Shown piece by piece: positions 1,443 to 7,053 of a stretch of 64,000 bases of DNA. The position numbers and the translations under genes are program-made. Origin of the DNA: Planomonospora sp. ID67723 (GTDB lineage Bacteria > Actinomycetota > Actinomycetes > Streptosporangiales > Streptosporangiaceae); NCBI RefSeq assembly GCF_015711605.1, contig NZ_JABTEZ010000004.1:682001-746000 (forward strand), given 5' to 3'. The stretch's first letter is position 1. Each line of letters opens with the position of its first letter. The notes under the pieces are model-generated. The model was given only the letters and a program-made list of their open reading frames with translations, was not told where the DNA came from and did not search any database.

Positions 1443-1817
1443 ATGACCATCCTGCACCTGGCCCTCACCGCGGACTGGGACGCCGCCCGAGCGGTGGGGG
1501 AGTACCGCATCTCCACCCTCGGCCGCACCCTCGAGCAAGAAGGCTTCATCCACGCCTGCGCCGACCGGGTCCAGCTCGACGGCGTCGTCCACCGTTTCTA
1601 CCGCGGTGTCACCGAGCCGCTGACCCTCCTGAGCGTCGATCCCACCGGACTCGACGTGCGCTACGAGGCCCCGGCCGGACCGGGCGGGCCCGGGCGGGAG
1701 GGGGCGGGAGGGGAGGTCTTCCCGCACGTCTACGGGCCGATCCCCGTCTCCGCCGTGATCTCCGCCGTCCCGTTCGGCCTCGCTGCCGTCCTGGGGAAAT
1801 TTCCAGGCACCGGGTAG
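1443..1817 (+). CDS. DUF952 family protein
   Basis: This 124-residue protein starts MTILHLA and contains GFIHACADRVQLDGVV and a C-terminal HVYGPIPVSAVISA segment. Those are the conserved blocks of the small DUF952 family (also called glutathione S-transferase-like DUF952), which has no established function. A Gly/Pro-rich insert lies at about residues 79-92. Its 3' end overlaps the 3' end of the convergent FAD-oxidase gene by 88 bases, so the two transcripts would be antisense to each other there. Confidence 0.85.
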   Translation: MTILHLALTADWDAARAVGEYRISTLGRTLEQEGFIHACADRVQLDGVVHRFYRGVTEPLTLLSVDPTGLDVRYEAPAGPGGPGREGAGGEVFPHVYGPIPVSAVISAVPFGLAAVLGKFPGTG

Positions 1818-3109
1818 TTCGCGCGGAACACGTTGTGCGGGTCACGGGCCCGCTTGATCTCCCGCAGTCGCGCGAGTGCGCTGCCGGAGAAGGCCTTCGC
1901 CGCCGTGTCGCCGGGGGACAGCACGGTGTACGGCTTGCGGCCGCTGATGTAGGCCCCCAGGTCGGCCACGACCTCGGCCTGCTTGGCGCGCGTCGCCTCG
2001 GCCGCGTGCGGCAGGCCGAGGCCCAGCAGACCGAGCAGGTACGGCTCGGCCACCGCACCGCTCGCACCGGCCCCGCCGCCCGGCTCGGCGAGCGCCCCGC
2101 CCAGGTGCCTGATCTGCATGTTGATGAGCGGTTCGACCGGCTTGGCCAGCAGGAGCTCCACCGCGTCCGCGTCCAGGCCGGTGAGCAACTCCGCACGAGC
2201 GACGGATGGGGCCGGATCGGTGGGCTCGGCGGCGATGTCGCCCAGGTCGGCAACCGGGACGACGCCGCGGTTGTCGGAGATCGCGCCCTCGATCTTGCCG
2301 ATGCGCGCCAGCAGGTCCTCCCCCTGAGCCGCCTCACCCAGGTAGGCCAGATCCAGCGTCACCATCGGCGGCGCGCCGGGTGGCTGGAGCCGGTTGATCC
2401 AGACACTGAGTTCACGCGGCGCCTCGGCGGTGATCTCCAGGAACGCGTCGTACACCTCCCTGGTCCGGTGCTCCGGCCAGATCACGCGCCCGCCGTACAG
2501 GGCCGGCGCGGGATACAGCTCCAGTTCGAGGGCGGTCACCACCGCGAAGTCCCCGCCACCGCCGCGCAGCGCCCAGAACAGCTCGGGGTCGGACTCGGCG
2601 GTCACCCGGCCCGGCTCGCCATCGGCGTCCACGATGTCGATGGCCTGCACGCTGTCGGAGGCGAAGCCGTACTTGCGGCTGAACCAGCCGACCCCGCCGC
2701 CCAGGGTGTAGCCGGTCACGCTGACCCCCGGCGCGCTGCCGGCCAGGCCGGTCAGGCCCAGCGGACCGGCCGCCGCCAGCACCTGCCCCCACTTCGCGCC
2801 CGCGCCCACCCGGACCACGCGCTCCTGCGCGCGTATCTCCACCTCGTTCAGCAGGCCGGTGCGCAACAGGATCAGGCCTTCCACATCACCCGAGGCGCCA
2901 TGCCCGCTCGGCTGCGCGGTCACCGTCATACCCGCCCGCCGCGCGTAACGCACGAGCGCCGCCACGTCATCGGCATCCGCGGCCTCCGCCACGGCCGCCA
3001 CCGGCTGCCTGACAGTCAGGTTCCACGCGGTGGCCGCCTGTTCAAAGCCGTCGTCGTCGGCCAGGAGCACGCGCCCCTTGAGGACACCGCGCAGATCGTT
3101 GGTCGTCAT
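1730..3109 (-). CDS. FAD-binding oxidase, berberine-bridge-enzyme type
   Basis: This 459-residue oxidase has an N-terminal FAD-binding domain (about residues 35-170) with PSGHGASG, whose His fits the site of covalent flavin attachment, and GYTLGGGVGWFSRKYG, the second flavin-loop signature. The C-terminal BBE segment reads DPHNVFRANYPV. The Cys used for a second covalent bond in bicovalent members is not seen in the GYTLGGG loop. Such enzymes oxidise alcohols, sugars or polyketide and alkaloid substrates with O2. It lies 73 bp downstream of a DUF4267 gene on the same strand, opposite an AfsR-like regulator. Its last codons overlap the convergent DUF952 gene. Confidence 0.9.
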   Translation of the reverse strand: MTTNDLRGVLKGRVLLADDDGFEQAATAWNLTVRQPVAAVAEAADADDVAALVRYARRAGMTVTAQPSGHGASGDVEGLILLRTGLLNEVEIRAQERVVRVGAGAKWGQVLAAAGPLGLTGLAGSAPGVSVTGYTLGGGVGWFSRKYGFASDSVQAIDIVDADGEPGRVTAESDPELFWALRGGGGDFAVVTALELELYPAPALYGGRVIWPEHRTREVYDAFLEITAEAPRELSVWINRLQPPGAPPMVTLDLAYLGEAAQGEDLLARIGKIEGAISDNRGVVPVADLGDIAAEPTDPAPSVARAELLTGLDADAVELLLAKPVEPLINMQIRHLGGALAEPGGGAGASGAVAEPYLLGLLGLGLPHAAEATRAKQAEVVADLGAYISGRKPYTVLSPGDTAAKAFSGSALARLREIKRARDPHNVFRANYPVPGNFPRTAARPNGTAEITAETGIGP

Positions 3110-3182: not shown

Positions 3183-3611
3183 TCAGGCGGGCTGCCCGGC
3201 CGGCGCCGGGGCGGCGGCCTCCTGGGCCTTGCCGGTCTCGCGGAGGATCAGCAGGCCCGTGACCGCGATCAGCGCCGAGGTCAGCCCGTGGACGCCGAAC
3301 GCGGCGGCCGTGGAGCCGTGGTGGGCCAGGACGATAGCCATGTCGCCGAACGGGGCGACGGCCACCATCAGCAGGACCCAGCCCAGGGCGCGGCGGTGGC
3401 CCGTCACCAGCAGGACGCCCATGGCCAGGCCCATCGCGATTTCGCGGCTGCCCTTCACGTTGAGGAAGCCGCCGCCGTCGCCGGAGGGCCAGGTCGGCAG
3501 GCCGAAGCCCGGCGCCTGCGTTGCGGGGATCAGGATGAAGGACGTCCCGAGGTAGAGAGTGAACAGGACCACGGCGGTGGCCAGGACGGTGTTGACGTTC
3601 TTCAGCGACAT
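3183..3611 (-). CDS. DUF4267 family small membrane protein
   Basis: This 142-residue protein has four hydrophobic segments (about residues 8-28, 58-78, 80-97 and 105-123) with a GSREIAMGLAMG motif between the first two, typical of the DUF4267 family of actinobacterial membrane proteins. The tail is Ala/Pro-rich. No catalytic motif is evident. It appears to be first in an operon with the downstream FAD oxidase and is divergent from the AfsR-like regulator, so all three may belong to one small regulated locus. Confidence 0.8.
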   Translation of the reverse strand: MSLKNVNTVLATAVVLFTLYLGTSFILIPATQAPGFGLPTWPSGDGGGFLNVKGSREIAMGLAMGVLLVTGHRRALGWVLLMVAVAPFGDMAIVLAHHGSTAAAFGVHGLTSALIAVTGLLILRETGKAQEAAAPAPAGQPA

Positions 3612-3683
3612 GGTTCTTCTCCTCGTGACGTTCAGACTGGGCAGGGTTCATCGGTTGCGACGTGTTCAGGCTGCTCCCGGGTG

Positions 3684-3726
3684 TTTGGAGGGGATTTGGA
3701 GTCGACTTGGAACGTCCACGTAAAAT
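3684..3726 (+). promoter_or_regulatory. SARP-type promoter: three direct heptamer repeats plus -10 box
   Basis: TTTGGAG (3684-3690), TTTGGAG (3695-3701) and CTTGGAA (3706-3712) are direct repeats at exact 11-bp spacing. A perfect -10-like TAAAAT lies at 3721-3726, exactly 8 bp after the last repeat. This is the published geometry of SARP-activated promoters, where a SARP dimer replaces the -35 element. The downstream gene is itself a SARP-domain protein, so autoregulation is the simplest reading. The start at 3736 lies only 9 nt after the -10 box, which suggests a leaderless transcript. Confidence 0.8.
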
Positions 3727-3735
3727 GTGCGGATC

Positions 3736-6700
3736 ATGGTCTTCATCCGGGTGCTGGGCTCTTTCGGGGCCGAGGTCGGCGGCGAGCCCGTTCCCCTGGG
3801 CGGGCCGCGGCAACGGGGCGTGCTGGCGTTGCTGGTGGCGGCGCGCGGGCAGGTCGTGCCGGTCGACCGGATGATCGAGGACCTGTGGCGCGGGGAGCCG
3901 CCCGCGCGAGCGCTGATGTCCTTGCAGGCGTACGTGTCCAACCTGCGCCGGCTGCTGGAGCCCGGACGTCCGCCGCGCACGCCGGCCCGGCTGCTGGTGA
4001 GCGCGGCGCCCGGCTACGCGCTGCGGCTGCCGCCGGAGTCGGTGGACGCGTGGCGGTTCGAGGACCTGCTCGACCAAGCCCGTACGGACACCGACCCGCG
4101 CCTCGCCCAGGCTCGGCTCGCCGAGGCGCTGGGGCTGTGGCAGGGACCGGCGTTCGCCGAGGTCGCCGACGAGCCGTGGGCCGCCGCCGAGACCGCCCGG
4201 CTGAACGAGCTGCGCCTGGTCGCCACCGAACTGCACGCCGCGGCGGGTCTGCGAATCGGCGACCCCGCCGCGGTGGTTCCCGAGGCCGAGCGGCTCACCC
4301 GCGACGAGCCCCTGCGCGAGGAAGGCTGGCGGCTGCACGCCCTGGCACTGTGGAGCAGCGGCCGCCAAGCCGACGCGCTGGCGACGCTCCGCCGCGCCCG
4401 CGGCATCCTCGCCGAGGAGCTCGGGCTCGACCCTGGCCCGGACCTGACGGCGTTGGAGGAGGCGATCCTCACCCAACGCACGGACGTCATGCGCGAGACC
4501 GTGCCACTGCCACTGCCACTGCCACCGCCCCCGCCGGCCGCACCGCGGCCGGCTCCGATCGTGCAGGCGCCGTTCGTCGGACGCGAGGCACAGCTGTCGG
4601 CACTGGTCACGGCCGCCACCACGGCCGCCACCGACGGCATCCGCATCGCCCTTGTCACCGGCGAGGCCGGGCTCGGCAAGTCGACGCTGCTGGAACACCT
4701 CGGCAGGCGGCTCGAACGTGACGGGTGGCTGGTCGCCGTCGGCCACTGCCCCGAGGTCGACAGCGCGCCACCCGCGTGGGCCTGGACTGAGGTGCTCAGA
4801 GCCGCCGCCGCGACCAGGTCCCCGGGCGAGTTCGCAGGCGACCTCGCGCCGCTGCTCACCGACACCGGACCGGCGGACGACGACGCCACCGCCGGACGGT
4901 TCCGGCTGCGCCGAGCCGTGTGGAAGTGGCTCGCGGCGGTCGCCGCGGAACGCCCGGTCGCCGTCGTGCTGGACGACCTGCACTGGGCGGACGCCGCCAC
5001 CCTGGAGCTGCTCGGCGGCGGCCTCGGCATACGGGCCCCGATCCTGGTCGTCGCCGCGTACCGCGCGGACGAGAGCGGGCACCTCACCGAAACGCTGGCC
5101 TCCGTCGCGCGCGCCACGCCCCTCCGCCTGGCACTGCCGGGGCTGAACGACGAGGCCGTCGCGGAGCTCGTACGGACCGAATGCGAGGCCGACGAGGAGA
5201 CCATCGCAAGGATCGCCGAGCGCACCGGCGGCAACCCGTTCTACGTGCGCGAAAGCGCCCGGCTGCTGAACGGCGAAGGCGCGCTGGTCGCCCTCTCGGA
5301 GGTCCCCGAAGGCGTACGGGACGTCCTGCGCCGCCGGCTCGCGCGCCTGCCCGAAGGAGGCGTGTCCGTCCTCCGGCTGGCCGCGGTCGCAGGCCGGGAA
5401 AGCTCAGTGGACGTCCTCGTCAAGGCCGCCGACACCGACGAGGACGGCGTGATGGACGCGCTGGACGCGGGCGTCATCGCCGGGCTCCTCGACGAGCCCG
5501 GCCCAGGCCTCATCCGCTTCGTCCACGCCCTCGTCAGGGACACGCTCGTCGCTGACCTCAGCAGATTGCGTGCCACCCGGATGCACGCCCGGATCGCCGC
5601 CGCTCTTGAGGGAACCGACGACATCGCGGCGCTGGCCCACCACCACACGCGTGCCGGCTCACCGAAGGCCGTCGGCTACTGCGTCCAGGCCGCCGAGCTT
5701 GCCGAGGCCCGCTACGCCCACGACGTGGCGGCCGACCTCCTCACCGACGCCGTCACCAACTCGACCGGACCGGGCGAACGGGTCGAACTGCTCGGCAGGC
5801 TGCTGCGCGCGCAGATCCGGGCGGGAGCCGTCGGGGCCGCCCGCGAGACACGCCGTGAAGCCGTGGAGTACGCAGAGTCCCTGGGCCGCGACGACCTGAT
5901 GATCGCCGCATTCACCGCGTGGACAGAGCCGACCGCCTGGCAGGCCCGCACGTACGGCACGGTGGACCGGCCCATCGTCGACCGCCTGAGCCGCCTGCTG
6001 AAGCGTGACCTGCCCCCTTCGGCGCGGTCCCGGCTCCTGACGGCGTACGCGCACGAACTGGTCGGCGAGGACGACCCGACGGTCGTGGAGGCAGCGCAGG
6101 AGGCACTCGACCTCGCCACCGAACCCCGGCTGCGGGCCGCGGCACTCGAGATCCTGGCGGGAGTCCACGGCGACGCCGAGCTCTGCCGGGAGCTCGTGGA
6201 GATCGGCACCGAGCACGACCTGCCGGTCTACCGCGTCACCGGGCTGCTCAACCGTGCCGGCGTCGCCGCCGCCGCCAACGACCCGGTGACCGTGCACCGG
6301 GTGGCCACCGAGGCGCTGGACCTCGCGCGCACCTACCGAATGCGCGAGGCGATCGCCGCCGCCGAGATCACGCTGGCGACCCTGTCGCTCATCGAAGGCC
6401 GATCGGCCGACGCCGAACTCCTCTACATCAAGGCCGACGAGGGCATGCGGCGCGCCGGATCGGTGCACACGGGCTTTCTCCAACTCGCCCTGGCCACGAT
6501 CCGGCTGAACGACGGCACGCTCGGTGCGCACCTGGACGACGTGCGCGCCCTCCACGCGGCGCTCGGCCCCATGGCCTCCGACCTGCTCGCGCTCGCCCTC
6601 CACGCCAACGGCCTGGACGCCGAAGCCCGCGAGGTCCGCCTGTCAGCCAGCCCGATCCGCCCTGACTTCTTCTTCACCTTCCTCACAACGTTGCGCGCGA

Positions 6701-7053
6701 TGGCCATCGTCGCCTTGAACGACCGCGACGCCGCCGAGGAGATCTACGCGACGCTGCTTCCGCACCGCAACGCCCCCCCGGCGGGTGCAACGAGCCTGTC
6801 GTTGGCGCTGCGCCCGGTCGCCCACACCCTCGGCGATCTGGCCGTCCTCCTCGGCCGCACCGACGAGGCCGCCGCCCACTTCACCCAGGCCGCCACCATC
6901 GCCGACCAATGGAACGCGCCCCACTGGGCCGCCGAGGCCCGGTTGCGGACGGCCAGGGCGGGCCCAGCGCGGCCGAAGCCGTCGATCACTTCCTCGCCTG
7001 CCCCGCCACCGCCACGACCCGCGCCGGCTGCGCCGCGACACCGGCCCACCTGA
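3736..7053 (+). CDS. AfsR/SARP-family transcriptional regulator with AAA-type ATPase and TPR-like tail
   Basis: This protein of about 1105 residues has an OmpR-like winged-helix DNA-binding domain (about 5-85, GGPRQRGVLALLVA), a bacterial transcriptional activation domain (about 90-245), a low-complexity Pro/Leu linker, and an ATPase module with Walker A GEAGLGKST at 309-317 and Walker B VVLDDLHWAD at about 409-418. A long helical, TPR-like region follows to the end. This is the large SARP architecture, which activates secondary-metabolite genes. ATG at 3736 is preferred over GTG at 3727 because the -10 box ends at 3726. It is divergent from the DUF4267/FAD-oxidase operon. Confidence 0.9.
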   Translation: MVFIRVLGSFGAEVGGEPVPLGGPRQRGVLALLVAARGQVVPVDRMIEDLWRGEPPARALMSLQAYVSNLRRLLEPGRPPRTPARLLVSAAPGYALRLPPESVDAWRFEDLLDQARTDTDPRLAQARLAEALGLWQGPAFAEVADEPWAAAETARLNELRLVATELHAAAGLRIGDPAAVVPEAERLTRDEPLREEGWRLHALALWSSGRQADALATLRRARGILAEELGLDPGPDLTALEEAILTQRTDVMRETVPLPLPLPPPPPAAPRPAPIVQAPFVGREAQLSALVTAATTAATDGIRIALVTGEAGLGKSTLLEHLGRRLERDGWLVAVGHCPEVDSAPPAWAWTEVLRAAAATRSPGEFAGDLAPLLTDTGPADDDATAGRFRLRRAVWKWLAAVAAERPVAVVLDDLHWADAATLELLGGGLGIRAPILVVAAYRADESGHLTETLASVARATPLRLALPGLNDEAVAELVRTECEADEETIARIAERTGGNPFYVRESARLLNGEGALVALSEVPEGVRDVLRRRLARLPEGGVSVLRLAAVAGRESSVDVLVKAADTDEDGVMDALDAGVIAGLLDEPGPGLIRFVHALVRDTLVADLSRLRATRMHARIAAALEGTDDIAALAHHHTRAGSPKAVGYCVQAAELAEARYAHDVAADLLTDAVTNSTGPGERVELLGRLLRAQIRAGAVGAARETRREAVEYAESLGRDDLMIAAFTAWTEPTAWQARTYGTVDRPIVDRLSRLLKRDLPPSARSRLLTAYAHELVGEDDPTVVEAAQEALDLATEPRLRAAALEILAGVHGDAELCRELVEIGTEHDLPVYRVTGLLNRAGVAAAANDPVTVHRVATEALDLARTYRMREAIAAAEITLATLSLIEGRSADAELLYIKADEGMRRAGSVHTGFLQLALATIRLNDGTLGAHLDDVRALHAALGPMASDLLALALHANGLDAEAREVRLSASPIRPDFFFTFLTTLRAMAIVALNDRDAAEEIYATLLPHRNAPPAGATSLSLALRPVAHTLGDLAVLLGRTDEAAAHFTQAATIADQWNAPHWAAEARLRTARAGPARPKPSITSSPAPPPPRPAPAAPRHRPT

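Follow-up and report, generated by a model that had tools for sequence, protein, structure and literature searches.

A triple heptamer array beside a large SARP gene of Planomonospora is predicted to serve a divergent redox operon

Introduction

SARPs are known mostly from antibiotic gene clusters. EmbR is a SARP-type protein found outside such clusters. For the large SARP PimR, the sections of the source papers drawn on here describe three heptamers of the CGGCAAG type, read on the pimM coding strand and located between pimR and pimM, and a pimM -10 element with the sequence CACAAT (PMC3367932, PMC5930380). In a pimR mutant, pimM was 90-fold down and pimR stood at 0.84 of wild type, a change without significance, and PimR is stated in the same part of the source not to be autoregulated (PMC3367932). 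For afsS, the available text of the source describes two 11-bp repeats that form a 22-bp box with its centre at -29.5, the upstream repeat lying at -40 to -30, and CACTGT as -10 element (PMC10936776).

Here, a large SARP gene and an adjoining heptamer array were analysed in a window of 64,000 nucleotides from Planomonospora sp. ID67723 (NZ_JABTEZ010000004.1, positions 682,001 to 746,000). Coordinates without a locus prefix are those of this window.

Loci

Relatives were collected by a scan of a species-genome collection, from which the best 80 of 99 relatives were kept, equalling 78 distinct loci. The close set comprised 39 loci with the protein N-terminus and at least 73% identity, and the distant set 35 loci with the protein start and 38–59% identity. 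Loci matching without the protein start (L069, L083, L119 and L120) were left out of all promoter counts; L083 does have the array. Spacing counts refer to 39 rows, i.e. the window plus 38 orthologous loci, with L068 (no array) left out.

Results

The gene at 3736..7053 (+) encodes 1105 aa. Pfam placed Trans_reg_C at residues 23–95 and BTAD at 103–245, each above cut-off, followed by an NTPase part with AAA_16 at 279–427 (93.7 bits). No TPR family was reported in the C-terminal part by Pfam at 1e-3. Against PDB sequences, the SARP domain matched EmbR best (E = 2.9e-38), and AfsR at 2e-30. With an OmpR-type wHTH followed by BTAD, plus the NTPase part, the predicted product is classed as a large SARP of the AfsR/PimR type.

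The array is intergenic, with the SARP gene on one side and a divergent operon on the other. On the divergent (-) strand, heptamers 1 (3684..3690) and 2 (3695..3701) read CTCCAAA and heptamer 3 (3706..3712) reads TTCCAAG, corresponding to TTTGGAG, TTTGGAG and CTTGGAA on the forward strand; heptamer 1 is proximal to the divergent operon. In the forward direction, the heptamers follow at an exact 11-bp period and are succeeded by 8 bp, TAAAAT as the SARP gene -10 element (3721..3726, +), 9 bp and the ATG at 3736. A sequence-only reading of this DNA had given these same distances, which were exact, and had named the gene a SARP, which Pfam bore out. Heptamers 2 and 3 are conserved in relatives, a conservation that heptamer letter counts overstate because heptamers were selected at 6 or more of 7 letters. 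By script, at least three heptamers were counted in 38 of 40 rows, with two in L073 and none in series in L068; in the close set, the array was kept in 38 of 39 loci, L073 having its third copy at 12 bp and L068 lacking the array.

Searched as three YTTGGAR at 11 bp, the array was the single window match at 0 mismatches; a second row with 3 mismatches was this array again, offset by one unit. Shuffled windows (n = 100) gave a mean of 0.00. Given this mean and the retention among orthologous loci, an origin by chance or as a simple-repeat artefact has a negligible probability, and by such sequence counts the three heptamers were confirmed as a non-chance, SARP-type array.

A pattern built from the window triple matched once in the 8.34-Mb own genome, as did a heptamer pair followed by 8–9 bp and TANNNT (reversed-pattern control 0). 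The genome-wide heptamer search that had been proposed for finding the regulon thus recovered the window array as the single match in its own genome. With three TTGGA and at most 2 mismatches, 3 places were found vs 2 + 2 in the control. The two weak places (L033 and L034) were dismissed as noise, the reversed control being equally frequent; in the ORF adjoining L033, a Pfam match was not found. When the regions upstream of the genome's 30 BTAD matches were scanned for any heptamer triple at 11 bp plus a SARP-side -10, the target reached 26, L030 22, and L015 and L016 20 each. Elsewhere in this genome, three GTTTG at 11 bp stand directly before the ATG of a paralogous large SARP (L015:1150-1180, C2 near 320,600); a clean -10 on the SARP side of this triple was not found.

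In relatives, the SARP gene has a TANNNT -10 element (TACGAT in most) 9–10 bp before the ATG. This start codon was present in 39 of 39 rows, with a purine at -3 in 38 of them, and a Shine-Dalgarno-like motif preceded it in 4. From the first T of TAAAAT to the ATG, 15 bp were counted in the window. In the section of the source used here, the mark of a leaderless gene is a TANNNT whose first T lies about 12 bp ahead of the start codon, and around one fifth of actinobacterial genes are leaderless by one prediction (PMC3160421). As 9 bp separate the -10 element from the ATG and transcription is expected to start 6–7 bp after the hexamer, a leader of 2–3 nt is predicted. The leaderless start proposed earlier would thus be nearly right: the gene appears near-leaderless and Shine-Dalgarno-like motifs are rare among the rows, but a very short leader is predicted.

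On the opposite strand, the window's divergent operon begins with a DUF4267 gene (3183..3611, -), followed by a gene for an FAD-binding/BBE oxidase (1730..3109, -). A Shine-Dalgarno-like GAGGAGAAG was read from the sequence before the DUF4267 gene (3616..3624, -). The proposed -10 element is CAGCCT (CANNNT; 3668..3673, -), 10 bp from heptamer 1, and would set a transcription start near 3661. The order on this strand is three YTCCAAR, 10 bp, CANNNT, about 23–61 bp and a start codon, where one was found. The conserved CTGCTCCCGGG block was considered as a separate regulator site and rejected: read on the opposite strand, it continues into the CANNNT hexamer and is therefore assigned to the putative divergent promoter.

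The usual divergent gene order in relatives is hemerythrin-DUF4267-FAD oxidase. In the 38 array-bearing orthologous loci, too, the array separates the SARP gene from a divergent gene. Of these loci, some of which end at contig ends (e.g. L048 and L052), 33 have a hemerythrin-domain gene on the divergent strand, which is broken in some, 32 have DUF4267, two of them by a weak match, and 25 have the FAD oxidase. The hemerythrin gene is absent from the window, L046, L049, L050, L072 and L080, a distribution for which the tree requires 5 changes; all six of these rows retain array and CANNNT, and the promoter therefore seems to outlive the loss of its first gene. Elsewhere in the own genome, two distant hemerythrin-like matches were found (28 and 33% identity). 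In L068, array and operon are both missing from the locus and the SARP -10 element and ATG are retained. As a separate observation, hemerythrin matches in L058, L059 and L133 are split or shortened beside an intact array, as if the gene were decaying.

For the divergent side, a hexamer with A at position 2 and T at position 6 lay at gap 10 in 36 of the 39 rows and at gap 9 in 3, with no other gap between 0 and 20; its first letter was C in 39/39 close rows. The SARP-side gap to TANNNT was 8 bp (n = 14), 9 bp (n = 12), 12 bp (n = 3), 13 bp (n = 1), 19 bp (n = 5), 21 bp (n = 1) or 22 bp (n = 3). The rows are in part dependent, since L048 and L052 share one genome, as do L055 and L059. On a quick tree from 39 proteins, with the L073 SARP-side gap set by hand to 9, a minimum of at least 14 changes was needed for the SARP-side gap vs 1 for the divergent gap. 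Grouped into coarse classes (8–9, 12–13 and 19–22 bp), the SARP-side gap required 3 changes; much of the 14 is therefore small wobble, of a kind nearly absent on the divergent side in the same genomes.

These gaps bear on the direction in which the array is read. The sequence-only reading had taken it for the SARP's own canonical promoter, where the SARP would bind TTTGGAG repeats facing its own gene, activate itself and leave the divergent operon aside. The exact 8-bp gap and 11-bp period of the window agree with such autoactivation, as do the SARP-side gaps of 8–9 bp in 26/39 rows (L073 taken as 9), whereas the gaps of 12–13 or 19–22 bp in 13/39 do not. The published 8-bp rule for the distance from repeat to -10 is matched on the SARP side in the window, but this gap drifts among relatives; on the divergent side the distance from heptamer end to -10 is 10 bp (6 bp from the 11-mer) vs the published 8 bp. 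Orientation was judged by spacing because heptamer resemblance alone is insufficient: the Y-T-NNN-A-R frame is self-complementary, so a reading on the opposite strand is easy to make. TTTGGAG, earlier named as the recognition sequence, did serve as a heptamer searchable genome-wide, but in the presumed target direction the sequence reads YTCCAAR.

In Nocardia/Rhodococcus, a second array precedes an ADH_N/ADH_zinc_N_2 (quinone-oxidoreductase-like) gene in 5 of 6 genomes at up to 1 mismatch (assignment from scans of three proteins), at L071:5390-5418, L074:11057-11085, L078:9233-9261, L115:9317-9345 and in L148, where it is known from a short sequence only. This gene is the predicted second target; in L071 it also contains an ABM domain. 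All five second arrays have the same orientation and a 10-bp gap to CAGTGT or CAGTCT. On the far side of the second array, L071, L078 and L115 have the SARP gene's 3' end and L074 has another gene, so that in these four loci no SARP promoter can be meant, which speaks against autoactivation as the general function of the array.

A second-site search in ten genomes returned 15 places, with the reversed-pattern control at 0 in all 10. Among 150 family genomes, a sample overlapping the ortholog set (L125 and L144 share coordinates), 12 genomes had the exact triple, at 12 places in total (13 rows, of which two overlap; control 2). Each of these 12 places, that of the window included, lies between a SARP gene and hemerythrin/DUF4267. 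Across the class, 3 of 394 genomes matched: the own genome, G006 and G478 (L153). From these family and class scans, the exact array appears to mark essentially one operon, or two in Nocardia/Rhodococcus, among the genomes searched.

For the distant set, arrays were chosen by heptamers alone, and 28 of the 35 loci were counted at a score cut-off of 16 of 21 (L103, L104, L112, L113, L117, L118 and L121 fell below it). Of these 28, 23 have an _A___T hexamer at gap 10. Among the misses, the array had been picked one unit too far in L081, L082, L084 and L109, to which a scan biased by rewarding the hexamer assigns 10 bp; the remaining miss, L093, is genuine. The first letter of the distant hexamer is C in some clades and G in others. 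In 13 loci (L079, L081, L082, L084, L091, L095, L096, L098, L103, L105, L107, L109 and L111), an in-frame hemerythrin ATG follows 6–7 bp past the hexamer. As this is the expected distance from a -10 element to the transcription start, it is a strong argument for the hexamer being the -10 element of a leaderless hemerythrin gene in those loci. The hemerythrin gene thus has a leader in nearer relatives and is seemingly leaderless in distant clades (L079, L081, L084, L091, L107 and others); in some distant relatives, e.g. L079, hemerythrin is fused to DUF4267.

In the Streptomyces loci L101 and L116, the array is near the hemerythrin gene: an _A___T hexamer on that side is 10 bp away, and the closest TANNNT ahead of the SARP start about 77–78 bp, a further SARP-side distance at odds with autoactivation. 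The Streptomycetaceae loci L093 and L104 lend it some support: two CTTGGAG repeats are kept before the SARP gene, with gaps to TAGGCT of 8 and 19 bp. In these two loci, neither a hemerythrin or DUF4267 match nor, on the opposite side, an _A___T hexamer 10 bp away was found. The two genomes have one distant hemerythrin-like match each (33–34% identity), and together they hold the heptamer pair before the SARP gene plus at one further place, L156. In L093, from a Streptomyces relative, the SARP gene is preceded in tandem by a gene (L093:5369-5911) that by eye looks globin-like. Weighing these loci with the drifting gaps, the second arrays, the persistence of the SARP -10 element and ATG in L068 without an array, and the statement in the cited part of the PimR report that PimR is not autoregulated (PMC3367932), we consider autoactivation improbable; the earlier interpretation is thus supported in part, but not its claim of a self-activating promoter, the SARP-side gap being 8, 9, 12, 13, 19, 21 or 22 bp vs 9–10 bp on the divergent side.

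In the presumed recognition helix, YVANLRR replaces YVSNLRR in L085, L087, L088, L090, L092, L094, L099, L102, L106, L110 and L111. The majority of heptamers in the YVANLRR loci are TCCCAAG- or CTTCAAG-like instead of YTCCAAR. This covariation is a possible recognition code, but probably comes from a single clade.

Discussion

The array is very probably a PimR-like operator of the large SARP whose main target is the divergent redox operon and not the SARP gene. The divergent operon is favoured as target because the divergent gap is almost constant while the SARP-side gap drifts, because the second arrays precede another gene in the divergent orientation with the same 10-bp gap, and because L068, without array and operon, keeps the SARP -10 element and ATG. 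SARP molecules would bind the three YTCCAAR as direct repeats facing the divergent operon. Heptamer 1 with its 4-bp spacer would end 6 bp short of CANNNT, which may be a weak -10 element, identified by its conservation. With this hexamer set at -12 to -7, heptamer 1 and its spacer would occupy -29 to -19, and heptamer 2 and its spacer -40 to -30, so placed that bound SARP could substitute for the missing -35 element. The target here would be the DUF4267-FAD oxidase genes, and in many relatives hemerythrin-DUF4267-FAD oxidase. The SARP gene would have its own adjoining near-leaderless TANNNT promoter, with a spacing to the array that is not fixed, and the ATPase part of the SARP presumably senses a signal. 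For binding, activation, transcription starts and the inducing signal, this is what we infer from comparison.

Gaps in the window's clade are 8–9 bp on the SARP side and 9–10 bp on the divergent side. Because both geometries fit there, the array could possibly affect the SARP promoter in this clade, positively or negatively. One form of this would be a shared bidirectional operator, activating the divergent operon and, where both spacings fit, the SARP promoter as well. The heptamer frame, self-complementary at 4 of 7 positions, would suit such an operator, whereas the drift of the SARP-side spacing and the description of AfsR-RNA polymerase contacts for one orientation, in the part of the source used here (PMC10936776), would not. 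We regard it as somewhat unlikely; it is compatible with the divergent operon as main target, and the odds of the two overlap. A negative form is more doubtful still: RNA polymerase recruited to the redox operon might occlude the SARP -10 element and so cause negative autoregulation in the window's clade (8–9 bp), with looser coupling in the lineages with 19–22 bp.

If the divergent operon is the target, a large SARP is tied to a hemerythrin/DUF4267/FAD-oxidase operon in several actinobacterial genera, with a near-invariant geometry of the target promoter. The operon does not resemble an antibiotic cluster, and the comparative evidence appears unusually clean. Dozens of natural promoters are thereby at hand to test on which of its two sides a SARP array acts, and there is a hint that recognition helix and heptamer are linked. 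The locus also advises caution, since repeats adjoining a SARP gene need not imply autoactivation. Among the matches listed from the open-access literature, a pairing of SARP and hemerythrin operon was not found, and the listed papers joining 'SARP' and hemerythrin were about blood substitutes; for DUF4267, no paper was found in the open-access literature searched.

The known systems resemble this locus to different degrees. The SARP domain has its best PDB match in EmbR of Mycobacterium tuberculosis. EmbR differs from the SARP described here in that its C-terminal part is FHA and in its targets. The TCGAGC element of DnrI/ActII-4 resembles TGGAGC on the forward strand of the array. AfsR-afsS of Streptomyces coelicolor, as far as the available text describes it, shares the SARP-domain match, a weak -10 element and, if the hexamer is set at -12 to -7, the same register; unlike here, it has two repeats of another sequence, and AfsR is called a global regulator.

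PimR-pimM of Streptomyces natalensis, as covered by the sections of its source papers drawn on here, likewise combines an ATPase-bearing large SARP, three heptamers with 4-bp spacers between regulator and target, and one local target. Read on the target coding strand, its CGGCAAG shares the CAAG half with CTCCAAG here and differs in the first half; in place of the PimR consensus CGGCAAG, the array has YTCCAAR, with only the CAAR half in common. The PimR site described there is placed 93 nt away from the start of transcription without overlap of the -35 region, unlike the array here, and it serves a PAS-LuxR regulator gene of an antibiotic cluster instead of a redox operon. Not classed as a member for this reading, the array would by analogy work like a PimR-type SARP-LAL operator.
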